Below are positions 1,342 to 26,001 of a DNA stretch of 26,001 bases, piece by piece (within the stretch, counting starts at the first letter, position 1; every line of letters starts with the position of its first letter). The notes beneath the pieces are model-generated. The model saw only the letters and a list, made by a program, of their open reading frames with translations, had not been told where the DNA came from and did no database searches. The DNA comes from a virus: IMG/VR virus record IMGVR_UViG_3300025151_000257, positions 1-26,001 of that record, one strand, 5' to 3'. A program made the position numbers and the translations under genes.

Positions 1342-2796
1342 TCAAGCCCCTCGAATTACCGAACCGGCGAGATTGTGTACTTCATCCCAAGACATGTTAC
1401 CCAAGTCTTGTGTGGATGGGACTTCAACATTAGATGAAGAAGCCGACTTTTGAATTGATGTGCCTTGAATGCCAATGTTATCAATACGCTCACTTAGTGC
1501 GTTAATTGACTTCATAACTTCATTGAGAGGCGCACGAGCATCGAACTCGGCTTTTTCTGCTTCATGCTTTGCGATTCTTTGTTCTTCTGCAAAGCGAGAA
1601 GCGAATTGAGATTCAAGGTCGCCACGGAATCCTTGTTCCATTGCGGCGGCTTTGTAAACTTCGTAAGCGGCTTCGATGTCACTTGAAGAAACATTGCTTG
1701 GGTTAATGTAACCCTTAGCCATTGAAACTGGTCCTAGCGCACCGGATGGTGTTTTACCGCCAGTTGAGGTGATTGCGGAGATTGCACCGGTTGAAGGTGA
1801 ACCGTTTTCTTGACCTCGACCTCGGACTTGTCCGGCGAAGTAGTCAGCACCATCAACAGCATCGGGGTTGTCAAAGCCACCAAGTTGTGCCTTCTCCAAG
1901 TTGTCGAAGTGTGTTCGTGCTTGCATGGTATCTACACCAGCGGATTTGAGGGTGTCCTCCATCCAGTTTAGGTATTCTGCGGTTATAACATCACTGTATT
2001 CACTTTTTGCGTAGTTCATTTTGTCATCATCCTCTTTTTCTTCGTCTTTATCTTTAGCGGCGAATGGGTTTTCCTTCTTTTCATCGTCGGAATCATCTTT
2101 TTTGTCTTTCATGTGTTCCTTAAGGCCGGGAGGCATCTCGCCTTTTTCCATAGCGTCAAGTCGTGCTTCAAGTCTGCTCATTACATTGTTCAAATCGTTA
2201 TCAATTTCTGTCATATTGGTGTCCTCCTTTAAAATACGAAACTGTGCTTCGGGGTTAATTCCTTTTTCACATATCGTTATTTCGTGTAGTTCCATTTTAC
2301 TAATTTCTTGGTAGTCTCCATGTTCCCCATCCGATTTACGCACTCTCTTGAATGCTTGTCCACCGATGGAAAATCCTTGCAGATTTCCTTTACGGATTTC
2401 TGCGGCCACTTCACGAGCCTTTTCAATGTCGTTGCGAAGTGAAACAACAACAAACATACCAGCATCATCAACTTCGGATTTCCACATCCGACCATTTGAA
2501 TCAACATAGGAGTCAATAACTTCTCCAACTTGAATGTTTGAGTGAGCAAGTTGTACATTACGGAACTTGTCACTCTTCATGAACCCGCTAAATGCATCCT
2601 TTAGTGCTGAACGGGTAATAAGGTCGCCTTGCTTGTCCACCAGTTCAACTGATGCGTAGCCAGCGATAACCATATCGGAACTGCCCTTAATGAGGGCGAT
2701 ACCGGATGTGGGTCGCTTTAGGGACAACATTACCCTCCGATTCATTGTCATGGTATATAGAATGTTTCTTTCACACTGAAAGAGTTGGAGTGCCAT
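1342..2796 (-). CDS. Prohead protease (S78/U35 type) fused to a scaffold domain
   Basis: The N-terminal 190 residues match HK97-family prohead serine proteases: GYASVELVDKQGDLI (46-60), the catalytic His in QLAHSN (H85), the Ser in QGFSIGG (S143) and an acidic residue in LHEITI (E172). Residues about 195-265 are highly charged. From 265 on the chain is helical and Gln/Ala/Glu-rich, as expected of a scaffold. It would line the prohead, then cleave itself and be lost before packaging. The last residues (467-477, NMSWDEVHNLA) recur in the 111-residue protein at 9382-9717. The start is uncertain: the ATG at 2796 overlaps the upstream gene by 26 bases and lacks a clear ribosome site, while in-frame ATGs at 2751, 2745 and 2730 exist, the last just after GGAGGG. 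Any of these keeps the protease motifs. Confidence 0.9.
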   Translation of the reverse strand: MALQLFQCERNILYTMTMNRRVMLSLKRPTSGIALIKGSSDMVIAGYASVELVDKQGDLITRSALKDAFSGFMKSDKFRNVQLAHSNIQVGEVIDSYVDSNGRMWKSEVDDAGMFVVVSLRNDIEKAREVAAEIRKGNLQGFSIGGQAFKRVRKSDGEHGDYQEISKMELHEITICEKGINPEAQFRILKEDTNMTEIDNDLNNVMSRLEARLDAMEKGEMPPGLKEHMKDKKDDSDDEKKENPFAAKDKDEEKEDDDKMNYAKSEYSDVITAEYLNWMEDTLKSAGVDTMQARTHFDNLEKAQLGGFDNPDAVDGADYFAGQVRGRGQENGSPSTGAISAITSTGGKTPSGALGPVSMAKGYINPSNVSSSDIEAAYEVYKAAAMEQGFRGDLESQFASRFAEEQRIAKHEAEKAEFDARAPLNEVMKSINALSERIDNIGIQGTSIQKSASSSNVEVPSTQDLGNMSWDEVHNLAGSVIRGA

Positions 2797-5700
2797 CTTC
2801 GTCGTCTAAAACGATAGACTCGTCTGCATCTGTTTTCATTTCAACATGAGTAATTGGTTTTTTCTTTTTATTCCCCGAATCAGCATCTTGTTCTTTCTCA
2901 TCCGGTCTTACTTTACCATCATAATCGGGTAAGTTGCTTTCTTCTGTCAACCTTGTAGGACCACTTGGTGATTCTATCGGAGTAGCCATATCAATCCCTA
3001 AGCCTTTTGGCCCTGTCCAAGTTAGTTTTTCTTTGGCTAATTGGTCTAACGCTCTACTGATTACTTCAAGTGCTTTTTTTGTTGAAGGTTTGAGAAGGCG
3101 ATTTTCGTCTTCTTCGTCGAGTACACCTGCTGACTGTCTGTCTTGTCTTTCACGACTTGGAGGTTTTTCCTCCATCATGTCCATTTTTACAAGATGACCT
3201 TCTAACATAAGAGGGGCAAGAGTATGCCAATACGGATGAAGACTCTCGGCAAGTGTCAACGAGTAATTTGATTTAGTTAAATCACCTAAAGCCGAGGATG
3301 GGTTATGTATGTACCAATTATCATCCATACGAGTAACTTGATACGATACAGTATCTACACCTTTGAGTATTACTTGTAATACACCATCATTGTATTCTAA
3401 GTCGTGTGGGATAAGAATAGGTGCAAATGATTTTGTCATTAAGTCAAGAGATTCAGCACTGGCCGCACCTTCGCCTTCACCTTCACTTTCTATTTCACGC
3501 ACCTGTACATTGAACACATCTCGATTTTTTCTACGCTTCTTTGTAACACCTGTTACAGTCGCTCTTACTATGTCACCAACTTTGAATGCTCTTTGTTGTC
3601 TGTGCGCTGTACCTACATCCATAAAGAATTGACCTTTGTATTCTATGGCTCGATTACCTAATGATTCACCATCAAGAATTGGACCCGCACCCAACTGATA
3701 TGTGTACGGTCCTTTGCCTCGACGGTCAAGAATAATAAAGTTAAAGTCACGACTTTCACGCAGTAACAACCACTTAGGATGACGACGCTCTCCTTTCATG
3801 TATGTGGATTTGTTATCTCTCAACAAGACTATACCGTGTTCTTTCTGTAAAATTTTAACAGCCTCTTCAAGACCTTCATCATCAGTCATTTTTGTATCAT
3901 GTGGACCGGGTATTATGACATTTTCATGACTATCAAACTGTCCTCTTAGTACTTTCATGCGCTCGTGCATCAACATTTCAGCAACATTGGTATCATCGTA
4001 ATTGATAATATCAATGATGTTCAAGTCTTCTTCACCTACAATACCGTCAATAACAAAGTTGTTATCATTTAATTCAGCAAGACTTTCTTTGAATGCTTTC
4101 TTTAATCCGACTTTACGCCCGTTTTCATCATAAGTGACAATCTCATTATCATTCTGTACTATGATAACTCGTTTACCATCATACCACTTACTTACTACCC
4201 ATGAGCCACTAAAACCTCGTAAATGCTCAAGGTCACTTAAATCGAATATACGGTGCATTGGTCTAATTGGTGGAACCCAATCAGCATCCTCACCTTTCGT
4301 CAATAAAACATCGGGATTCAAAAGTGATGTAATGTAGTCACTCATCTCACTCAAGTTAAGTGCTGTTGGATTATCTTGTCCTATAGTTTTTGAGGTTTCT
4401 GTATCGTATTGCATAAAGGGCGGTATAGGGTTTTGATGCGGCGGTAGTGTTTCCAGTAATTGTTTTGTCATATCCGTACCATGGAGTTCTTCTAATGCAC
4501 CTTGCCAAGTATTATGAAACAATTGAGGTTCTAAGTATGTGCCTATCAGTGGTTGTCCTTGAGCATCGAACTCAAAACCAACAGAAGGATTTTGAGGAAT
4601 AGCAGAAGAGTGAACTACATCAGCACCAGTGTGTGTAGGCATAATACCGAATGTAGAAGGGTTGACTCCACCTATAGGAACTGGTTCGCTATTGATACCT
4701 ATAGTTCTTACAGTTTCTTGAATAGGTGTCATGTTGTCGTCATTAACCGCATCAATATCTAAACTGACAATACTATCAAGGCGATTTTTTGTTCTTCGTG
4801 TATATGGTTTTTTACTACCTTTACCAGCACCTAATCTATTATGAACATCGAGTTTACCACCGGCTGGATAAAAACTTAAACCGTTATTTGCCATGTTTTG
4901 CCCAAACTGATTTGCTTCAAAATAATTGGTTGCACTCCCGACAGTGTTGTGAATAGGATGTGCTTTCCAATTAGTATGTCTACCTTGAGCATTATCAATA
5001 GCAAAATGTAAATTATTTTCTTCATAGTCTTGTCCAAATTGTTCATCACCGTGAAGTTGATGAAGTGAAAATTTATCATTGAATTGACCACTTGAGAGTA
5101 ATTGACCGATTGTAGATACACGCAATGGTACTTCTCTTGCATTTGACTCGTCAATTATTGCTTGTACATGCGCTCTCAAGCGTGATTTTTGTTCACTTGT
5201 TTTACCCTCTAAGCCCATGCCTTCTAAAACTTCATCCGGTGTCATATTACCGTTTAACTCAAAACTGTTATCGAGCATATGACTCATTACATCACGATGA
5301 AATCCCTGTTGTTTAGGTTTAACAATTTTAGTCTCATCTGCCATGCGATACACAGGTGCTTTGATACCGTGTACATTATGGTCTGCTCTTGCAAGCCATC
5401 GTTCAGCGTCATACATCAAACGATTATGATTTGCTAAAAACTTCTCCGGGTCATTGATATCAAAATGATTTGGGTCGTGTTCTATTATTTTTGGATAAAG
5501 TAATTTAGCGGCTTCAAGCACAGCATTACGACTGTTTTTTGCAATTTTATCCGTAAGACCGGCATCTTTTTTCCACCAAGTACCTGCTTTACCAAGTACA
5601 GACTCGGTTGAACGGCGTTGTATTTCATTCAATTCTATTTGACTTGTTTGTAATTCTTCTTGTAACGCTTTTACCTGTTCGGGTGATTCCATGTATTGTA

Positions 5701-8611
5701 TCATTTCAGTAATGGCATCTAATCGTTCAGTTAATTCTCTTTCTTTTTGCATTGCAGGTAACATACCGCCAAACTTCAATGCGGTATCAATGGTCCTTGT
5801 AGTAAATGTAGTGTCTTCTGTGGGTTTTATAGAAGTCTTACCGCTTTGTGTTTTGGCTTTTGCTTCTTCACCTTTTTGCCTTCGTAATTCAAATTCAAAA
5901 CTATTTAGCCATTCTTTTAGTTCATTCATATCCCCATCATTTAGGAAAGAACCCTCTTGTTCCATACGATGTTTAATGTCAGCGTACATTGGGTCTTCTT
6001 CTGTTAAATTGCTAATGTGGTTAAAAATTCGATTAGGAGAATTAACCCCTGTTTCTTTTGCTATTGCTGTTAAAATACGCAAGGCTTTTGCGCTGGCTGG
6101 TGAGTCAATATAGTTTTTAACATTACCAAAATTTGGTTGTTTAGCACCCCAACCCATAAAATCCATATAATCCTCATGGTCTACACCAAAACTCACTGGT
6201 ATATTACCACTCATTAAATCCTTTAATGCTTGTACAGAAGGCTTTTGTGGTTTATGTGGGTCAAGAGTGTGACCTAACATTGTTTTTCGCCAATGTTGTT
6301 TTCTTGCCTTTTCCAGCATAGGAGTGTCGGATGTGTTTGCACCGTACATAGATTCGGGTTGAACTTTAAGCATAGGATTGTGTGCAATTAAGGGACTCAT
6401 ATGCCTTAAACCGCCTTTCTTTTCTTCTGTAGTCATAGTACGAAGTGCATGAAGATATTGTGGGTTAAATGTTGATTTGTGTAAAGTCCAATTGTGTTTA
6501 TCCCCTCGCCCTTTTTTCAATACTGTATTTACATTTACAGGTGAAAACATGTTTTGTAGTAATTCAGCATCATTGAATCTCCTAAACAAAGTGTAGGTTT
6601 TGTCTCCCTTTTTATTACCAACTTGCTCGGTATAACCGATAGGTCTTGCTTTTTCGGAACCAAAGTGCATACCTAAAGCCATGTTTAATGAATTTGGTTG
6701 TAACACTATTTGATTACCGTCTAATTCAAACAAACTTGAAGTAGCGGGAAATGACATATTTTTCGGCTTTTGTTCAAACGGAGTTGGTACATGTAAAGTG
6801 TCTCCTGTCTGCGCTCCACCTGTAATGTCTACAGGTTCATTACTTGCTATGTTTGCATACGCTTGTTCAATTTTTTCTTCTTCTGTTAATTCGTCTTCAT
6901 TATGAGAAGGACTGTGAATAACTTCATTGTATGCGGCCAAAGTCATATCAGCACCACCAAATTGAGCGAAAGGATTACTCCAAAACTTTGCTGGTCCTAT
7001 GGTGTGATTACCACCTTTGTCGAACCGCCAATGTGGGGGTTTTTCTTCATCGGGATGAGGACCATGCGGAGATTGTAAAAACGCAAGGTCTGTAGCAATG
7101 TCTTTTCTTTGTGATAGTAAAGTACCCCTTTGCATTGCTTCACTTTCCATTTCTTCTAAATGGTGAAGCGGGATTATAGGACCATCCATCTCTCCGTAAA
7201 TAGGGTGATTAAGAAGTGGCTTTCGTGTTTTTGGGTTATAACCTGCAAGGAATAAAACATCCTCCATCGGCATACGAGTTAGTTCGGGGTCGGTAATTTT
7301 TCTTTTTTTGTAATGTCTTCTAACACCTGCTTGTAATTCTTTTAAAGCATATTTTTCTTGCGGTGCAACTGAATGTAAGTCGAGTCTTGGTAATACATTG
7401 AATTTTTCACCAACATCATCTTCTATGCCGTGTGTGTTATGTAATTCATCTATAATATAATCTGCTATACTTCTACCATTTATGTCATAAGAGTGTACCG
7501 CTTTACCAATAGCAGGTTGAATAAAACGATTTTCTTCTTGTTTGTAATCTGTTTCATTACTTTCTTGATACAAATGAGCGTTTGGACCAAAATGCCCACC
7601 TTCTCTTACCGCCCAATTCATTTCCGGTGTACGACGCATTAAGTTATTCCAAACTAATCGAGCAGAAGGGATATGTTCTCCGTTTGGTAATTTAATATCA
7701 TTATGTTCATCAACTCCTTTTTCATGAATATGGCGCATAACAGCAGTTCTTTCTTCGGGGTTTAACCATTCAAGACCAAGGTGATACCCCTCTTGTCCTA
7801 ATCCAACAGCATGTTTATCACCGTTTTCATCTACAACATATCCGCCACTTTGCCACTGCTTTGCTCTTTGATTAAAATGGTCTACTCGTAAACGATTTTC
7901 AGTTTCTTCTGCTGAACGACCATCAGCAAGATACTGGTCTTTCAATTCACTGTTAAGTTTATTCCAGCGTTGAAAATCACGCTCATACAATTCGTGTTGA
8001 TGTGATACATTAGACTTGAAAGTTCTTAGGGAGCCGAGGATTTTTTTACCGTTATACCCAAAAACCAATGGACTTTTTTTTGCTTCTAAATACCTATGAA
8101 ATTGTTTTTCCATCTCCATCTCTTCTTTAGAATGCCCGTTAAAAATATGACTTCGTAAAAGTTCTACATAAGCGGCATTACCACTTGTAATGTCCATTTT
8201 TAAAAGCGGGTGATTGGTATGGTGGAAAGGAAAATTATGTTCTCGATACGGGTGAGATGCAGTGGGTATATACCGAGGCCATACAGCGTGAGATTCTCTC
8301 ACATTATCTGCACCCGCTAAACGGTCTTTCCAAACATGGTCTGTTGGTTCACCATGTGTATGATGTTGTGCGAGAAGAAAACCCGGACCTTCTTTGTATG
8401 AAGGTAGTTTTTCTACTGTTGTGGCTTTATCTTCTTCTTTTTGAATTAGTTCAGCCGTGTATTTTAACGACCTTGAAAGTGTATCTGTAGGTGCTTTGTT
8501 AAGAGATTCCCAAGCAATGATGTATTCAGCCGCACTAAACGCTAAGTCGTTACCATCGGCTAATGAAAGCAGTAATTCATCTTTAGCAAAGTTAAATTGT
8601 TCTGCTACCAT
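2771..8611 (-). CDS. Giant virion-associated protein with a degenerate ATP-dependent DNA-ligase-like domain
   Basis: A single uninterrupted 1946-residue frame, by far the largest gene in the window, lies between the small genes after the portal and the protease. The first ~950 residues are His-, Asn- and Gln-rich with no family I recognise. A coiled coil lies near 955-1010. Residues about 1465-1615 resemble the adenylation domain of ATP-dependent DNA ligases: VVSKWYDGKRVIIVQ (motif I region, D1478-G1479), FVIDGIVG (motif III, 1519-1526), HGIVLLR (motif IV, 1592-1598) and PKWLLLR (motif V, 1612-1618). An OB-like segment follows (to ~1706, VGDIVRATVTGV). The key residues are altered: the nucleophilic Lys position (two before the Asp) is Trp1476, the motif III and IV Glu are Ile and His, and the motif V Lys is Leu. 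It therefore probably binds nucleic acid or nucleotide rather than ligating. The ATG at 8611 has GAGGCGGTGAAAAC before it. The role, perhaps a head-internal or ejected protein, is inferred from position. Confidence 0.8.
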   Translation of the reverse strand: MVAEQFNFAKDELLLSLADGNDLAFSAAEYIIAWESLNKAPTDTLSRSLKYTAELIQKEEDKATTVEKLPSYKEGPGFLLAQHHTHGEPTDHVWKDRLAGADNVRESHAVWPRYIPTASHPYREHNFPFHHTNHPLLKMDITSGNAAYVELLRSHIFNGHSKEEMEMEKQFHRYLEAKKSPLVFGYNGKKILGSLRTFKSNVSHQHELYERDFQRWNKLNSELKDQYLADGRSAEETENRLRVDHFNQRAKQWQSGGYVVDENGDKHAVGLGQEGYHLGLEWLNPEERTAVMRHIHEKGVDEHNDIKLPNGEHIPSARLVWNNLMRRTPEMNWAVREGGHFGPNAHLYQESNETDYKQEENRFIQPAIGKAVHSYDINGRSIADYIIDELHNTHGIEDDVGEKFNVLPRLDLHSVAPQEKYALKELQAGVRRHYKKRKITDPELTRMPMEDVLFLAGYNPKTRKPLLNHPIYGEMDGPIIPLHHLEEMESEAMQRGTLLSQRKDIATDLAFLQSPHGPHPDEEKPPHWRFDKGGNHTIGPAKFWSNPFAQFGGADMTLAAYNEVIHSPSHNEDELTEEEKIEQAYANIASNEPVDITGGAQTGDTLHVPTPFEQKPKNMSFPATSSLFELDGNQIVLQPNSLNMALGMHFGSEKARPIGYTEQVGNKKGDKTYTLFRRFNDAELLQNMFSPVNVNTVLKKGRGDKHNWTLHKSTFNPQYLHALRTMTTEEKKGGLRHMSPLIAHNPMLKVQPESMYGANTSDTPMLEKARKQHWRKTMLGHTLDPHKPQKPSVQALKDLMSGNIPVSFGVDHEDYMDFMGWGAKQPNFGNVKNYIDSPASAKALRILTAIAKETGVNSPNRIFNHISNLTEEDPMYADIKHRMEQEGSFLNDGDMNELKEWLNSFEFELRRQKGEEAKAKTQSGKTSIKPTEDTTFTTRTIDTALKFGGMLPAMQKERELTERLDAITEMIQYMESPEQVKALQEELQTSQIELNEIQRRSTESVLGKAGTWWKKDAGLTDKIAKNSRNAVLEAAKLLYPKIIEHDPNHFDINDPEKFLANHNRLMYDAERWLARADHNVHGIKAPVYRMADETKIVKPKQQGFHRDVMSHMLDNSFELNGNMTPDEVLEGMGLEGKTSEQKSRLRAHVQAIIDESNAREVPLRVSTIGQLLSSGQFNDKFSLHQLHGDEQFGQDYEENNLHFAIDNAQGRHTNWKAHPIHNTVGSATNYFEANQFGQNMANNGLSFYPAGGKLDVHNRLGAGKGSKKPYTRRTKNRLDSIVSLDIDAVNDDNMTPIQETVRTIGINSEPVPIGGVNPSTFGIMPTHTGADVVHSSAIPQNPSVGFEFDAQGQPLIGTYLEPQLFHNTWQGALEELHGTDMTKQLLETLPPHQNPIPPFMQYDTETSKTIGQDNPTALNLSEMSDYITSLLNPDVLLTKGEDADWVPPIRPMHRIFDLSDLEHLRGFSGSWVVSKWYDGKRVIIVQNDNEIVTYDENGRKVGLKKAFKESLAELNDNNFVIDGIVGEEDLNIIDIINYDDTNVAEMLMHERMKVLRGQFDSHENVIIPGPHDTKMTDDEGLEEAVKILQKEHGIVLLRDNKSTYMKGERRHPKWLLLRESRDFNFIILDRRGKGPYTYQLGAGPILDGESLGNRAIEYKGQFFMDVGTAHRQQRAFKVGDIVRATVTGVTKKRRKNRDVFNVQVREIESEGEGEGAASAESLDLMTKSFAPILIPHDLEYNDGVLQVILKGVDTVSYQVTRMDDNWYIHNPSSALGDLTKSNYSLTLAESLHPYWHTLAPLMLEGHLVKMDMMEEKPPSRERQDRQSAGVLDEEDENRLLKPSTKKALEVISRALDQLAKEKLTWTGPKGLGIDMATPIESPSGPTRLTEESNLPDYDGKVRPDEKEQDADSGNKKKKPITHVEMKTDADESIVLDDEDGTPTLSV

Positions 8612-14061: not shown

Positions 14062-15552
14062 TCATGGCACTAACCACCCATCACCCGGTTTATTATTACG
14101 ATGTGGCATACCACCGATGTACTCATCGAGTCCCGGTAGTATATCATCGAGTAGTTGCACTGAACCTTTGAACTCCTTTGTTCCCCAGTTCGCTAAAGCA
14201 AGTGCCATTGCTAAGTCATCGTGAGTACCCACCGATTCAAGTCGCCCATTCTTTTGCATACCAAATCGGTTGAGTTCTTCTTCTAATTTATGTGTGAATG
14301 TACGACTTCGCTCATCACCATACGGTAATTGAATTTGTCCTTGTTCAAACGCCATCAGCAAAGACATGAACATGCTTTCTTTGCGTTGGCGTGTTGTCAT
14401 AAAGGTGCGAATAGGAATATCGTTTCTCATGTCTTGAAGTTCTGCGGCAAACATTCGCTGAAAGTTGTTACCTTCAAGTTCAATCAAATCCGGCTGGAAA
14501 CGGTTGTTAAGAGTAAGAATATGTTTTTTCTGTGCCAATCCACCTAATCCCTTTTCATGCACAACACCGACGATTTGCTTTACATTATCACCGGGTGGTG
14601 TACGAAGCACAAGCATGGCTGTGTAGTCAGCGTTCTTATCCGAAGCAATTGCTGTGTCCCATCCGATAAAGTGTTGACCAAATACACCAGCGGGATTACC
14701 CTCTTCGTCGTATTCGGTTTCGGCTTTGTCAAGTAACACTAAGTCAGTATTGCGGGCTTCTTGTAAAATAGTTGCAGGAAACATACTCGCAACATCGTGA
14801 ATAGGTTCACACAAGTATTCACGGCTGAATTGTATAGCGGGCATTGACATACGCCGTTGTTCAAGTGCTTCAAGGTTCCACCGTTCCGGCCAAAGAGCGT
14901 TACCCTCACCGTCAATGGCAGGATATGTTTCGACACGGAATGTTTCTTTTTCTTCTAATTCAGCGTACAAATCGTTGTAACTGAACGGTGTACCTACCAT
15001 CATCAAACGAGATGAGTGGTGCAGAACCGGGAGTAGAACACCATAGAACCAGTCAGCGGCTCGCTGTAGTTCTCCACCGGTTGTACCCCAAAGAATATCG
15101 TCGCATACTACCACATCGGGGTGGAAACCACGAGTTGCACCACCAACCGACTTAGCCATTAGACGGCTACCGTTGGTGAACTCAAAGTAAGACTTAGCCC
15201 ACGGTCGGCCACCTTCGGGTTTTAGGTGTCGCAGAATGTCAGCACTCTCAATGTTATTGCGGATAAATCGCATGTGTTCAAGTGTCTGTTCAAGAGAGTG
15301 AGAAAAAATCATGATGTGTGTTCCGGGTTTGAATGCGGCTATCCAAAGAGCATAGGCCATAAACAAAGTGGACTTACCGTGGTCACGACTTGCTTTAACA
15401 CAGTAGTAACGGTGTTCGTTTAGTCCTGTTTCCCATGATTCATGGTGATGACTGTAATGAAAGCCCAGTATTTCTGTAAAGAAGTACTTGAATGACTTTG
15501 CCGCCATTTTGCTATCCATTTCTTGGATAAACGCATTCATTTCATCTCCCAT
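14062..15552 (-). CDS. terL: Terminase large subunit (packaging ATPase and nuclease)
   Basis: The 496-residue protein carries the full set of large-terminase motifs. Walker A is ASRDHGKST (54-62), Walker B is VVVCDD (147-152), and the coupling motif is MVGTPF (185-190). The RNase-H-like nuclease has acidic residues in FIGWDTA (D299), ELEGNN (E358/E360) and THDDLAMALA (D445/D446). It would dock on the portal, pump DNA into the prohead and cut the concatemer. Two starts are possible: the ATG at 15552, behind GAGTTGATAGT, or the ATG at 15540 (Met5), behind GGAGATGA. The upstream gene's TGA stop lies in the first of these ribosome sites. No residue essential to either activity is missing. Confidence 0.96.
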   Translation of the reverse strand: MGDEMNAFIQEMDSKMAAKSFKYFFTEILGFHYSHHHESWETGLNEHRYYCVKASRDHGKSTLFMAYALWIAAFKPGTHIMIFSHSLEQTLEHMRFIRNNIESADILRHLKPEGGRPWAKSYFEFTNGSRLMAKSVGGATRGFHPDVVVCDDILWGTTGGELQRAADWFYGVLLPVLHHSSRLMMVGTPFSYNDLYAELEEKETFRVETYPAIDGEGNALWPERWNLEALEQRRMSMPAIQFSREYLCEPIHDVASMFPATILQEARNTDLVLLDKAETEYDEEGNPAGVFGQHFIGWDTAIASDKNADYTAMLVLRTPPGDNVKQIVGVVHEKGLGGLAQKKHILTLNNRFQPDLIELEGNNFQRMFAAELQDMRNDIPIRTFMTTRQRKESMFMSLLMAFEQGQIQLPYGDERSRTFTHKLEEELNRFGMQKNGRLESVGTHDDLAMALALANWGTKEFKGSVQLLDDILPGLDEYIGGMPHRNNKPGDGWLVP

Positions 15553-21060: not shown

Positions 21061-21396
21061 ATGGTTAAAGTAATGTTCGCAAGAATCATGTGGCGGGTTA
21101 AAAGAGTAGCAGGTGTACCTCTTAGTAAAGAGTCAATTCGTAGTCTTACTCAAGCGGCTAAAGATATAGCAAAAGGTGAATACGCACCACCTACTTTAGT
21201 AAAAGAAAGAGTTCGTATTTGTCACACATGTCCTCACGGTGGAACACGATGTAACCTATGCGGTTGTTTTGTAAATTCTAAAACAGCATTGCTTAATTCA
21301 CAATGCCCAATACACAAGTGGCCGTCAGCGAGTGATGCGGGAATAAGCACCAGTGAGCATAAGGAAACTGGCAAACAAACCAACGAGATAGTATGA
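21061..21396 (+). CDS. Small Cys-rich phage-type zinc protein on the opposite strand
   Basis: A 111-residue protein with a helical lead (SIRSLTQAAKDIAKGEYAPP) and a compact metal-binding segment RICHTCPHGGTRCNLCGCFV followed by a Lys and CPIHKW (C54, C57, C64, C67, C69, C82). This pattern ending in CP..KW is common in small phage proteins of unknown function that sit near structural genes. It is the only confident plus-strand gene. Its start is 15 bases from the start of the divergent minus-strand gene, and its last 72 bases overlap the end of the membrane-protein gene at 21325. No ribosome site is visible, so leaderless translation or a later Met (21073 or 21088) is possible. Confidence 0.8.
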   Translation: MVKVMFARIMWRVKRVAGVPLSKESIRSLTQAAKDIAKGEYAPPTLVKERVRICHTCPHGGTRCNLCGCFVNSKTALLNSQCPIHKWPSASDAGISTSEHKETGKQTNEIV

Positions 21397-22221: not shown

Positions 22222-23172
22222 TCACTCACCTACTCCAATACTTTCTTGCTCAAGAGGGTTTTGATTGAGAGTTTGATTGACTTGTTGTTGTACAAGTGCT
22301 TGGAATGCGGGTGTTGCTTGCTGTTCCATAGCCAATTCATGTTGAAATATACGCAAGTCAAATGAAATAGTCGTAATGTCGTTTTGACCTGTTAATGGGT
22401 TATTGTAATGATTTACGCTAATTCCTTTTGTTTTACGAGCATCTTTTTCTAATTCAGCGAAAAATGGCTCGTATTTTTTCAACATTGTAGGGGTAGGGTC
22501 TTTTTTAGCCACAGCCGCAACAGGTACAGTTACAATAGAAACTCCTTGTTTTACTCTATCTCGCAAGCGTCTTGGATTTGCTTGATGAATACGGTCTTCT
22601 TCTGCCTCCCACTTGCACAGTAAATGATACAGATGCATATGTTCGGGGCAATATGTACCTCGCATTTTACGACCACTGGTAACTTTATCCAGTGCTACAA
22701 AAGCCTCCGGTTCACCAGTAACAGGATTTTGCCAATACATTTCCCAAAGAGAACGCCCTGTGTCTTCATCTGTAATTTTTGCATACAGATTATCATGTTG
22801 TATAAGTACGGAACAGTCACATCCATCAATTACACAAACATGTGATTGTTTATTGTAGTTATATTTTCTACCAAAAAGCCATCGAACAGGGTTAAAGATA
22901 CTACGCTTTGATGGAGTAAGAAGTTTATACGCTTGCCTAATGTCTTTACGACGAGCCTTTTGAGGGTCGGGATGACGACTTGGATAAAAATTAACTTTAG
23001 GAACTTGCAAGTTATTTTCACTTGCGGCGGCTTGCATTGCTTCTTGAGCCGTAGCCTGTTCCATCAATGCCGCATAAGACAAGGTATCGTTACCTTGTTG
23101 ACTTAACGCCATTAAATGCGCTTGATTAACATTACCAAGATTGGCTTGCTGTTGATTAAATTGTGGCATCAT
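22222..23172 (-). CDS. 316-residue protein with a Cys/His cluster
   Basis: A Gln/Ala-rich N-terminus (1-55) is followed by a basic segment and a Cys/His cluster: C113, C118, C120 (CVIDGCDC) and C175, H178, H180, H183, C186 (YCPEHMHLYHLLC), likely to bind one or two zinc ions around a small beta domain. The C-terminal third contains TISFDLRIFQHELAMEQQ and ends Gln/Asn-rich. The start (ATGATG) overlaps the stop of the AbrB-like gene, behind AAAGGTGAT. Family not recognised; probably virion- or membrane-associated given its neighbours. Confidence 0.75.
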   Translation of the reverse strand: MMPQFNQQQANLGNVNQAHLMALSQQGNDTLSYAALMEQATAQEAMQAAASENNLQVPKVNFYPSRHPDPQKARRKDIRQAYKLLTPSKRSIFNPVRWLFGRKYNYNKQSHVCVIDGCDCSVLIQHDNLYAKITDEDTGRSLWEMYWQNPVTGEPEAFVALDKVTSGRKMRGTYCPEHMHLYHLLCKWEAEEDRIHQANPRRLRDRVKQGVSIVTVPVAAVAKKDPTPTMLKKYEPFFAELEKDARKTKGISVNHYNNPLTGQNDITTISFDLRIFQHELAMEQQATPAFQALVQQQVNQTLNQNPLEQESIGVGE

Positions 23173-23351
23173 ATTTTATCACCTTTTATTGCTTTTAAAT
23201 AGAAACCTTGTTCAGTGCTACCACAAAGTTCCCATTTAATTTTATCTCCTGCTGATAGTTGTAATAATTCTGCCATTGCATTTGGTATAACAGTTCTTAC
23301 ACACTTACTTTTTTTATTTACTGCAATTACCGTTGTTACTTTGTTTAACAT
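23169..23351 (-). CDS. AbrB/SpoVT-type DNA-binding protein
   Basis: The 60-residue protein VTTVIAVNKKSKCVRTVIPN followed by AMAELLQLSAGDKIKWEL matches the swapped-hairpin AbrB fold: an Arg/IP turn, a short helix and the GD-K-W strand. Such proteins bind DNA as dimers and act as transition-state regulators or antitoxins. Very short single-domain versions are common in archaea. No toxin gene lies next to it, so a regulator of this cluster or of host genes is more likely than an antitoxin. Ribosome site GAGATGATATT before ATG; nine bases after the GTPase stop. Confidence 0.85.
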   Translation of the reverse strand: MLNKVTTVIAVNKKSKCVRTVIPNAMAELLQLSAGDKIKWELCGSTEQGFYLKAIKGDKI

Positions 23352-23360
23352 AATATCATC

Positions 23361-24077
23361 TCATGTGGTCAATAAATCTATCATTGTTTCTTCAACATTC
23401 CATCCTATACGAGTTGCCATAAAGGAACGGCGTGTGGGTATGCCCGCTTTTTGTAACCGAATTAAATCATCTCGGAATGCATCGAATATTTTGTGTTCAC
23501 CAATTCTACTTTGTTGCCACAGCATTGCGGCATTTTCATCGAAGAAACGGTCTGCTTTATTTGCTACAAGCATAACTAAGCGTGGTGAATATTTTTTACC
23601 TTTCCATCGACTTTTAAAAGTGCGATATCGGTATGTACGGTTAATCAAGCAATCGACAAGATATTTGAAGCCAGCAATTTGTTGTAATGCTTCTTGCCCG
23701 CCTTTTATTGCTCGGTCGTCAAAAACAAAAACAACTGCTTCTACTTGACGGGCAACCATATCATCAATCCATAAATTCCAAAAACGCTCTTGTCCACCTA
23801 TATCGGATGAATACACAACTCGCTTTTGCCCTTTCCAAGAGATACGCTTACGGGTTGCTTTCGGCATCATGTACCGACCAAGTAATTTCATGTGTGATGT
23901 TCTTTCTTCATCACCAATTTCATCCATTTCACCCGGAGTTGTCATGTAACGGTCAAGTGTTGTTTTACCTACCATTGCCGCACCATATATACCTACACGG
24001 CGTGGTCGCCAAGAATTGTATAAGGATTGACCAAATACAGCCGCACCTACAAGAGCAGAACCAGCAGGGTCAACCAT
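23361..24077 (-). CDS. Arf/Ras-like small GTPase
   Basis: The 238-residue protein has all main guanine-nucleotide motifs: G1 GAAMVGKTT (32-40), a switch region with Thr60, G3 DIGGQERF (92-99) with the catalytic Gln96 kept, G4 NKAD (173-176) and a G5-like MATRIGWNVEE (220-230). The DIGGQ form of G3 with a following W is closer to Arf/SRP-receptor-type or MglA-like GTPases than to translation factors. An N-terminal hydrophobic stretch (ALVGAAVFGQSLY, 8-20) might contact membrane. It overlaps the end of an 86-residue membrane protein gene by 8 bases, and a second membrane protein precedes that. Likely role: a nucleotide switch working with these membrane partners. It is unusual in a virion-gene region. 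The ribosome site is GGAGTGG. Confidence 0.88.
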   Translation of the reverse strand: MVDPAGSALVGAAVFGQSLYNSWRPRRVGIYGAAMVGKTTLDRYMTTPGEMDEIGDEERTSHMKLLGRYMMPKATRKRISWKGQKRVVYSSDIGGQERFWNLWIDDMVARQVEAVVFVFDDRAIKGGQEALQQIAGFKYLVDCLINRTYRYRTFKSRWKGKKYSPRLVMLVANKADRFFDENAAMLWQQSRIGEHKIFDAFRDDLIRLQKAGIPTRRSFMATRIGWNVEETMIDLLTT

Positions 24078-24330
24078 TTATCCCACTCCATATCCAATCT
24101 GCAAAACTTTGCACTTTATCCCAAAACCATTCTACAGTATTAGTCCAAAAAGACTCACCTGTAGATAGTTCCCAAAGGCTAATAGATAAAGCAGTAATAA
24201 AACAAAAAAGAATTGTTCTTAACCACCCTACACCTTTTTCATAATATGTATCAAGAGTGTTTTGAGTGTGCATGGCACGAAGTGTAGCCTCGGTAGAATC
24301 ATCAGTGGGTGTTTTAAAAATACGACCCAT
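24070..24330 (-). CDS. 86-residue single-span membrane protein
   Basis: One hydrophobic helix (about 37-52, RTILFCFITALSISLWEL) separates a polar N-terminus from an aromatic, amphipathic C-terminus rich in Trp (FWTNTVEWFWDKVQSFADWI). The Trp-rich tail could lie along the membrane surface. It overlaps the GTPase gene by 8 bases, so the two products are probably made together and may interact. ATG at 24330 with GAGGTGATTAA, in which the upstream stop is embedded. Family unknown. Confidence 0.75.
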   Translation of the reverse strand: MGRIFKTPTDDSTEATLRAMHTQNTLDTYYEKGVGWLRTILFCFITALSISLWELSTGESFWTNTVEWFWDKVQSFADWIWSGING

Positions 24331-24339
24331 TTAATCACC

Positions 24340-24894
24340 TCACTTCTTTTTTGTCTCTTTAGGCTCGTCTTCTTCTTTTATTCCGAGGTTAATTGGTTGT
24401 TTAACTTCTGCTTCATGATTTGGAATACCGGGGTTAAATTTCTCACTGTCGTATTGCGATACAATTGAAGGTGAGCCGCCCGGAACACCCCAACTTGGAG
24501 GCATTTTACCCGGATTTTGCTCCATCCAGCGTAATTCTTGTTCAAGTTGCGCTTCTTGCATACGCATTTCCATGTCATTGCGTCTATTATCAAAACTTAG
24601 TTGCATTTGGCGGTATCGGTCTTGTCTGTTCTTTTCTAACGAAGTTGCTCGTACTCTTTCTTGCATATTCTGTTCAAAGAACATTTTAAAGAAGTAATAC
24701 GCTATACCTTGTACAAAAAATGCCGCCATTGCGTATGTAAATCCGTTTAACATAGGAGTATCGCTGATTAACCATAATTTTGCATCAAAAACACCAATTG
24801 CTATTCCAACTAAGGCCGATTGAGCCAAAATTAGCCCCATCAGTCGTATTTCCGCATCCGATTCTTGCCTGTTACCTTGCATGTTGCTCACCAT
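24340..24894 (-). CDS. Membrane protein with two spans and a long coiled coil
   Basis: Residues 18-36 (LMGLILAQSALVGIAIGVF) and 50-70 (NGFTYAMAAFFVQGIAYYFF) are hydrophobic. Residues about 75-132 form a charged Gln/Met/Arg-rich coiled coil, and the rest is a Pro-rich, then Lys/Glu-rich tail. The coiled coil could recruit the GTPase encoded two genes on. The ATG at 24894 has no ribosome site; Met5 (24882) sits behind GGTGAGC and may be the true start. No family recognised. Confidence 0.75.
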   Translation of the reverse strand: MVSNMQGNRQESDAEIRLMGLILAQSALVGIAIGVFDAKLWLISDTPMLNGFTYAMAAFFVQGIAYYFFKMFFEQNMQERVRATSLEKNRQDRYRQMQLSFDNRRNDMEMRMQEAQLEQELRWMEQNPGKMPPSWGVPGGSPSIVSQYDSEKFNPGIPNHEAEVKQPINLGIKEEDEPKETKKK

Positions 24895-25039: not shown

Positions 25040-25063
25040 GATAATAATGATAATTATGATAAT
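25040..25063. repeat. Three GATAAT units at 9-bp spacing (possible operator or promoter)
   Basis: GATAAT occurs at 25040, 25049 and 25058, each 9 bp apart, in the AT-rich spacer before the membrane-protein/GTPase cluster. The last unit touches the stop codon of the upstream gene. Regular spacing suggests either slippage or a protein-binding array. On the minus strand the AT-rich run could also supply a TATA element for the genes that follow. Confidence 0.45.
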
Positions 25064-26001
25064 TATAGAAGGGTTCCTTTGTCCTTGAAATGCCTTGCTC
25101 GGTTGGTATGAGGGTCTTCGGGAACGATAGTGTGCTGGCTGGTGTGGCTCATGTCCGGTCCACCTTGTCCCATGATGTGTCGTCGTCGGCGTTCACGGTT
25201 AAGTTCCTCTCGATACTTCACACGCTCCGGGCTGGACTCGTACTTTTTGTCGTACTCCAACTTATGACGCTTGGCTTCGGGGCTAACACGCTCTTTGAGT
25301 AATTGCATAGCAATCTCCATTGGTTCGCTACGGGTAAAGCCTGTTTTTTCATTGTACGGCATATTATAAAACGATGGGGCGGTGGTTATTTCTCCTGTTT
25401 CATCGGGTAAAGATACTGTATTAAGATGTAAAGGTACTTCTTTACCACTTAAAGCCGCTACATCAATAATATCTTTAACAGGTGAACCATCGGGATGTTT
25501 TTCCGAGCGAAAACGATTTATTAAATTTTCATCTGCAAACTCACTTCCAAGTGTTTTACTTTGTTTGGGTAGTCCTTGCCACCATGGGCCAAACTCACCG
25601 GGTTCGTATTTACCGGACATGTAAGCATCATGGTATGCTTGTGATACATCATGTGCTTGGTCTACAAGAGATTTATCCGGTATATCCTCTATATTATAAT
25701 CACTATCCAGTTTAATACCATGACGAGTACCTATTCCACGAGTGCGTGATAATGATTCCATGTGTCCGGGGTGGACTTCGGGTGGTGCTTCTCCAAACAT
25801 TTCTTGATAAGTTTGTCTTGGTACATCGTCATTGTACAAATCATCATCATCATAATCATCAGCAAGTCCTTTTTTTTCCTTTAACAACCGCATAGCAATG
25901 TTCATTGGTTCGCTTTTATTCGTCAATATACCTATTGCCTTTTGATAACGCTTTGCTAAACTTTCATTTGGGTTGTTCTTTAGATTAGAATGTAAATCAG
26001 C
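25063..26001 (-). CDS. Modular viral protein with two EPM-LLK repeats (5' end cut by window edge)
   Basis: The frame is open to the right edge, giving 312 residues. A TTG at 25926 is only an internal codon, since the frame continues upstream with LKNNPNESLAKRYQKAIGIL. Two copies of a 15-residue module occur: KSEPMNIAMRLLKEK (from 25917) and RSEPMEIAMQLLKER (from 25332). Between them lies an acidic stretch (DDYDDDDLYNDD) and a polar region. The C-terminus is Arg-rich (REELNRERRRRHIMGQGG) and ends DPHTNRARHFKDKGTLL, a module I recall, without certainty, at the ends of other marine viral proteins. Function unknown; likely a virion or DNA-contacting protein. Confidence 0.78.
   Translation of the reverse strand, partial: ADLHSNLKNNPNESLAKRYQKAIGILTNKSEPMNIAMRLLKEKKGLADDYDDDDLYNDDVPRQTYQEMFGEAPPEVHPGHMESLSRTRGIGTRHGIKLDSDYNIEDIPDKSLVDQAHDVSQAYHDAYMSGKYEPGEFGPWWQGLPKQSKTLGSEFADENLINRFRSEKHPDGSPVKDIIDVAALSGKEVPLHLNTVSLPDETGEITTAPSFYNMPYNEKTGFTRSEPMEIAMQLLKERVSPEAKRHKLEYDKKYESSPERVKYREELNRERRRRHIMGQGGPDMSHTSQHTIVPEDPHTNRARHFKDKGTLL

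Follow-up and report, generated by a model that had tools for sequence, protein, structure and literature searches.

A divergent small GTPase of the Ras superfamily, encoded beside two membrane proteins, is a core gene of a group of magrovirus-like tailed viruses

This study examined an open reading frame (ORF) of a 26,001-bp virus record (hereafter the window, meaning the whole stretch of DNA analyzed) and confirmed, from its predicted fold, that the product is a G protein of the Ras superfamily. The ORF is real; it comprises 238 codons from an ATG on the minus strand (23361–24077), and a chance ORF is ruled out by conservation across homologs and by a dN/dS of 0.05–0.06 between close relatives, which indicates strong selection. 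The gene belongs to the core of a virus group whose members look like group-A-type magroviruses of Poseidoniales. The reading that we propose, with confidence that is about evenly balanced, is that this core late gene encodes a divergent, Arf-leaning GTPase that would work at the host membrane as a GTP-dependent switch, together with two membrane proteins encoded upstream. The genes concerned are as follows:

14062–15552, minus strand: TerL (terminase large subunit), the anchor for the presence test (Pfam)
23169–23351, minus strand: 60-aa AbrB/MazE-like protein, downstream of the GTPase gene (Pfam, neighbor comparison)
23361–24077, minus strand: small GTPase of the Ras superfamily, 238 aa, core gene of the virus group (ORF, homologs, model, fold matches)
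24070–24330, minus strand: Trp-rich membrane protein with one transmembrane (TM) helix, 86 aa, overlapping the GTPase gene by 8 nt (ORF, neighbor alignment)
24340–24894, minus strand: membrane protein of 184 aa with two TM helices (prediction, alignments, and a model with helices at residues 9–37 and 47–126)

Annotation by sequence alone would overlook this GTPase, because the single-sequence Pfam matches were all under cut-off (Roc, 0.0025; Rag, 0.1; Arf, 0.18) and PDB sequences, queried both with single proteins and with profiles, returned nothing above chance. The NCBIfam model TIGR00231 (small_GTP) matched 63 of the 81 family members, with a best value of 7.4e-5. We therefore turn to the AlphaFold model, which was built on 81 homologs and reached a pLDDT of 75.7 and a pTM of 0.77. 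Foldseek matched it to 530 PDB chains at E ≤ 0.001, headed by Rab, Rho, and Ras entries, and a second, closer structural aligner placed 995 of 1000 chains at Z ≥ 8. The results revealed a G-domain fold, as the initial annotation had anticipated, and the fold search ruled out an unrelated phage P-loop family.

The sequence features of the protein were then located on the alignment of the family and on the model:

24009–24068, minus strand: N-terminal helix, residues 4–23, proposed membrane contact (DSSP of the model, column statistics)
23961–23984, minus strand: G1 or P-loop, GxxxxGKT, residues 32–39 (G32, G37, K38, and T39 invariant in 152 sequences)
23892–23939, minus strand: switch I region, enlarged; TPGEM (47–51), R59-T60, and H62 invariant (152 sequences)
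23769–23804, minus strand: G3 or switch II, DxGG[QEDH]xxFWxLW, residues 92–103 (family alignment)
23583–23699, minus strand: insertion region between G3 and G4, residues 127–165, with the conserved basic YRYR...GKKY.P (spacing, conservation)
23550–23561, minus strand: G4, NKAD, residues 173–176 (invariant in 152 sequences)
23391–23420, minus strand: G5-like MATxxGWNVE, residues 220–229, preceding the last helix of the model (conservation)

In the window protein, G1 reads GAAMVGKTT (residues 32–40), G3 reads DIGGQ (92–96), and the G5-like segment, which the earlier annotation did not list, reads MATRIGWNVE, of which MAT (220–222) was invariant wherever covered. Across 151 unique homologs and the window protein, G32, G37-K38-T39, D92, G95, and N173-K174-A175-D176 never varied, so that the earlier statement that G1, G3, and G4 are intact holds for the P-loop, DxGG, and NKxD of all 152 sequences. 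The LW pair at 102–103 was also invariant. T60, likewise invariant, is likely the Mg/switch Thr; the loop before it was modeled at a pLDDT below 50, and residues 39–52 are poorly defined. The D-to-N spacing across the G3–G4 insertion is 81, compared with 57–68 in nearly all reference GTPases.

The initial annotation had also taken the catalytic Gln of G3 as a sign of an active switch. Q96 is indeed present in the window protein, but it is not fixed in the family: residue 96 is Q in 101 of the 152 sequences, E in 39, D in 10, and H in 2. A tree from which this column had been left out requires at least 11 changes there. The argument from the Gln must therefore be rejected as it was put. All of these residues are polar; Ras Q61E still hydrolyzes GTP, and EF-Tu has His at the corresponding position, and thus the polar-only pattern neither speaks against catalysis nor proves it. 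Judged by its motifs, the viral protein probably binds and hydrolyzes GTP.

We assessed the position of the protein among the small GTPases by structural ranking, profile comparison, and phylogeny. With the closer aligner, Arf/Arl entries were on top (Z scores: Arl8b, 15.7; Arf6, 15.5; Arf1, 15.4; leading group, 15.7–15.2), followed by Asgard ArfR1 (14.8 and 14.7), an Asgard RagA-like protein (14.6), Gtr/Rag, Rab5 (13.7), and KRAS (13.2), where entries less than 1 Z unit apart are to be read as tied. A search of 119 Asgard genomes with the viral profile yielded weak matches, and nine of the best proteins all had Arf as their top Pfam family, although Ras-type genes outnumber Arf-type genes many times in Asgard genomes. 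The closest cellular relatives found are Asgard Arf-like proteins with the switch II DxGGQxxFWxLW; the nearest cellular relative may lie elsewhere, the host included, because this search covered Asgard genomes only.

Other comparisons were less discriminating. The window protein scored 11.7 bits against Pfam PF00025 (Arf), for which the cut-off is 22.3; both Arf and Ras were under cut-off for the family, and only 13 of the 81 members matched PF00025 at any level. In pairwise hhalign comparisons, the viral family matched Ras at an E value of 2e-9, MglA at 5e-8 (between Ras and Arf, with only four bacterial references), and Rag at 1e-6. Ras, MglA, Rag, and Arf were thus about equally distant from it (2e-9 to 1e-6), whereas Arf, Ras, and Rag matched one another far better (1e-15 to 1e-27). 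In the tree, the viral clade was on its own long stem of 3.35 changes per site. The approximately unbiased (AU) test rejected none of the topologies that joined the viral clade to the Asgard Arf-like proteins with DxGGQxxFWxLW (Asgard-FW; p = 0.545), to Arf (0.34), or to Ras (0.346), and the likelihood of the first was slightly above that of the free tree. A grouping of the viral clade with L272 (98/74) was set aside as a meeting of long branches. Neither the tree nor the profile comparison assigns the viral family to one of Arf, Ras, Rag, and MglA, and a firm placement in any of them was discarded. The earlier label of Arf/Ras-like therefore stands at the superfamily level, and the protein is a member of the Ras superfamily; Arf membership is not demonstrable given the sub-threshold Pfam score, the long stem, and the AU result. 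The phylogeny suggested earlier was run, and it does not tell Arf from Ras. What makes the protein lean toward Arf is the order of the structural matches, the signature in switch II, and the identity of the best matches from cells.

The gene is located in a viral structural region, as first described: the same strand carries the gene cluster for virion morphogenesis in a tailed virus of archaea, with an SU10-type major capsid protein (MCP), an HK97-type protease, the portal, and TerL. We collected terminase loci without regard to the GTPase and counted those with roughly enough upstream DNA. The GTPase gene was found upstream of the terminase in 65 of 68 related loci, 7.8–9.9 kb from terL (40 of 43 in the first set and all 25 in a second, more divergent set). 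Among the three loci that lack it, L348 and L411 stop short of the expected site, and the contig of L416 carries the gene elsewhere, at locus L110. This near-universal presence shows that the GTPase is a core gene of the virus group and not a stray capture. Its conservation was on par with that of TerL (59–94% and 55–97% identity, respectively). IMG/VR viral contigs contained 256 related stretches, and deeper scans from divergent members returned more of the same family, with at least ~57% identity to the query among the matches listed.

To which viruses the gene belongs was considered from gene content. A relative, G002, whose TerL is 96% identical to that of the window and whose sequence of 107,632 bp carries a 75-bp end repeat, has two opposed gene clusters, one for HK97-type morphogenesis and one for replication, and matched family B DNA polymerase (PF00136, 5e-41), thermosome (3e-127), and HMG-CoA lyase (5e-60); another, G015, is 115,554 bp long. 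Magroviruses of Poseidoniales carry PolB, a chaperonin, and HMG-CoA lyase in genomes of 90–118 kb (PMC12999244, PMC10768690), and a thermosome-type chaperonin occurs in one magrovirus clade (PMC5332604). With its PolB, archaeal thermosome, HMG-CoA lyase, opposed HK97-type morphogenesis and replication clusters, and size of ~108 kb, the relative resembles the order Magrovirales, and this gene content is the basis on which we assign the genomes to group-A-type magroviruses. Members of the GTPase family were also found in metagenome-assembled genomes (MAGs) labeled as Maricaulis, as an Asgard archaeon, and as Cytophagaceae (contigs L132, L133, and L134; the Asgard one is L133). An Asgard host was set aside, since mis-binning is the simpler reading of L133 when members also occur in the Maricaulis and Cytophagaceae MAGs. 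No mention of the GTPase was found in the magrovirus and marine-virus literature searched; some key papers were outside its scope, and an earlier annotation is possible.

Several other features of the region were observed. The 1946-aa ORF beside the prohead protease (2771–8611, minus strand) resembles an ATP-dependent DNA ligase domain only weakly (E 0.008), a similarity that recalls the ligase/protease pair reported for one group A magrovirus (PMC7318539). A lone plus-strand gene with a cysteine cluster (21061–21396; phrog_13558, DUF6171-like) lies inside the late cluster, and its counterpart in G002 is also on the plus strand. A short motif of the type F..AW.LLK is common to several adjoining proteins at 25063–26001 of the window and at ~45.5–48.9 kb of G015 (L090). 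It is often N-terminal and at times repeated within one protein (SEPMNIAMRLLKE / SEPMEIAMQLLKE), and a window protein with this motif is matched by phrog_6437 (1.4e-16); the motif may mark virion proteins for sorting or processing.

Upstream of the GTPase, the gene order was nearly constant: a two-TM coiled-coil protein, a one-TM Trp-rich protein, and the GTPase. The one-TM protein, usually Trp-rich and of 61–110 aa (some start sites are uncertain), was present in 76 of 76 loci, and a two-TM protein of 168–237 aa preceded it in 73. The coiled-coil membrane protein reported earlier upstream of the GTPase is part of the cassette; in the 184-aa protein, TM2 is predicted to run on into one long charged helix (residues 47–126 including TM2), a coiled-coil candidate, for which only secondary structure was taken from the AlphaFold model (pTM 0.32). 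In the alignments, the charged helix after TM2 is conserved and ends in RRxDMELRMQEAQLExELxWME, and the 86-aa protein has a conserved cytosolic-type N-terminus, DDSxExTLRAMHxxNTxDxxYE, before its TM helix. The dN/dS was ~0.05 for the 184-aa protein and 0.13–0.18 for the 86-aa protein. The AbrB/MazE-like gene downstream is absent or replaced in part of the GTPase family and is therefore not essential to the cassette. The translational overlap noted earlier, in which the start of the GTPase gene and the stop of the 86-aa ORF share 8 nt (ATGGTTGA), is present in the window but is lineage-specific; it occurred in 13 of 76 loci, and most others had gaps of 1–37 nt. Functional coupling through this overlap was set aside accordingly. 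The synteny itself may reflect only shared late expression.

The predicted N-terminal helix (residues 4–23) is hydrophobic and uncharged, with conserved G6, G11, and G16, and is followed by aromatic residues and a basic (K/R)PRR. It is only moderately amphipathic (mean moment z of 1.4 against its own shuffles). The window protein starts with MVDP, and the family has no conserved Gly at position 2. We propose that this layout represents a membrane-contacting helix ahead of the G domain, through which the viral GTPase would touch the membrane; Arf has such an arrangement, and one has been proposed for ArvA. Taken together with the two membrane proteins that are conserved upstream of the gene, this helix is most simply read as part of a membrane switch under GTP control. 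The virus-encoded, membrane-associated switch suggested initially fits the cassette and the hydrophobic helix.

In the mechanism that we propose, the GTP form would expose or insert the N-terminal helix and would bind the conserved soluble segments (in the 184-aa protein, the helix that follows TM2; in the 86-aa protein, DDSxExTLRAMH), and the two membrane proteins would serve as receptor and effector. Hydrolysis, tunable through the residue at the Gln61 position, would release the GTPase. Such a switch, timed with the other morphogenesis genes, could organize or deform the cell membrane in late infection and thereby serve assembly-site recruitment or exit. The partner binding and the late timing are inferred; the remodeling or exit role is speculative and is guided by the archaeal vesiculation precedent of ArvA. 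No GAP or GEF candidate for the viral GTPase was identified.

An alternative that we regard as unlikely, albeit worth serious attention, is that the protein is a virion assembly GTPase, which would take part in capsid, connector, or packaging steps (a timed assembly factor is one example) and to which the neighboring membrane proteins would be unrelated. The place of its gene among the morphogenesis genes, on the upstream side of TerL, portal, protease, and MCP, and a conservation comparable to that of TerL agree with such a role. However, synteny with both membrane proteins extends across the family, the N-terminus forms a hydrophobic helix free of charged residues, and sequence searches found no Ras-superfamily assembly factors in other tailed phages. 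Queries with the viral protein, Asgard Ras, and Asgard Arf found no Ras/Arf relative in 50,697 phage records, and no PHROGs family was convincingly matched by Asgard Ras, Arf, or bacterial MglA proteins, which bears out the earlier claim that small GTPases are rare in tailed viruses; these searches were sequence-based, and a GTPase as divergent as the viral one could escape them.

A host-manipulation switch, in which a mimic of a host small GTPase sequesters regulators or effectors and might, for example, block or redirect vesicle formation or exclude other viruses, is rather improbable in our judgment. Small GTPases serve vesiculation in archaea (PMC10927574), the best matches in the 119 Asgard genomes are all Arf by Pfam despite the far commoner Ras-type genes, and the Gln61 position has changed repeatedly, all of which would suit a mimic. 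Mimics usually vary between hosts, whereas the viral family is tight (at least ~57% identity) and holds many invariant residues outside the nucleotide site. We consider it doubtful that the three genes form a dedicated membrane-remodeling machine, in which the Arf-like GTPase, a coiled-coil receptor, and the Trp-rich protein open or bud the archaeal envelope for release and GTP-driven exit replaces holin and endolysin. Least probable is an inactive or slow GTP-binding scaffold that keeps binding while hydrolysis is functionally unimportant, for although the Gln61 equivalent is E, D, or H in one third of the sequences through at least 11 changes, the substitutions are all polar and could still orient water, and the P-loop, DxGG, and NKxD are invariant.

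Switches of the Ras superfamily typify the membrane biology of eukaryotes and Asgard archaea. The present findings place a small GTPase, as a conserved core gene beside two conserved membrane proteins, in a widespread group of marine archaeal viruses. The small-GTPase family gains a divergent virus-borne branch, for which the searches returned no cellular relatives closer than Asgard Arf-like proteins. Should the GTPase of our preferred reading indeed operate at the membrane, these viruses would encode an archaeal membrane switch of their own, one that would offer a way into studying how they organize the host envelope.

Among known systems, Arf/Arl proteins and Asgard ArfR1 provide the best structural matches and share the helix before the first strand; Asgard Arfs also share DxGGQ with LW at +10/+11 and the GKTT P-loop. 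The viral protein differs from Arf in its length of 238 aa, its enlarged switch I (K-to-D spacing of 54 vs 36–38), a ~20-residue insertion between G3 and G4, a family score under the Pfam Arf cut-off, and its own long stem in the tree; the window protein also lacks the Gly2 that is N-myristoylated in eukaryotic Arfs. A group of ~300-aa Asgard Arf-like proteins (L273–L275, L286) has a near-identical switch II (DLGGQRDFWNLW vs DIGGQERFWNLW), and one of them, L275, is 30% identical to the viral GTPase over 124 residues (BLASTP E 9e-9). These proteins are cellular, have an extra N-terminal domain of ~100 residues with CxxC, and lack the viral insertions. Close relatives of this Asgard group were present in ~7 of 227 Asgard genomes at E < 1e-30.

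ArvA (OapA), an archaeal GTPase that drives vesicle formation in Haloferax and has a predicted N-terminal amphipathic helix (PMC10927574), is similar by description as an archaeal single-domain small GTPase with an N-terminal helix, operon partners, and a proposed membrane role. It is cellular and is accompanied by ArvB (DUF2073) and ArvC (DUF2072), neither of which appeared in Pfam scans of the viral GTPase neighbors. Rag/Gtr, Rab, Ras, and MglA have the G-domain fold and motifs in common with the viral GTPase and are no closer than Arf. Among the modeled viral proteins searched, the small GTPases that matched best were the Ras/Rab proteins of giant viruses; these viruses infect eukaryotes, and their GTPases are 10–18% identical to the protein described here.
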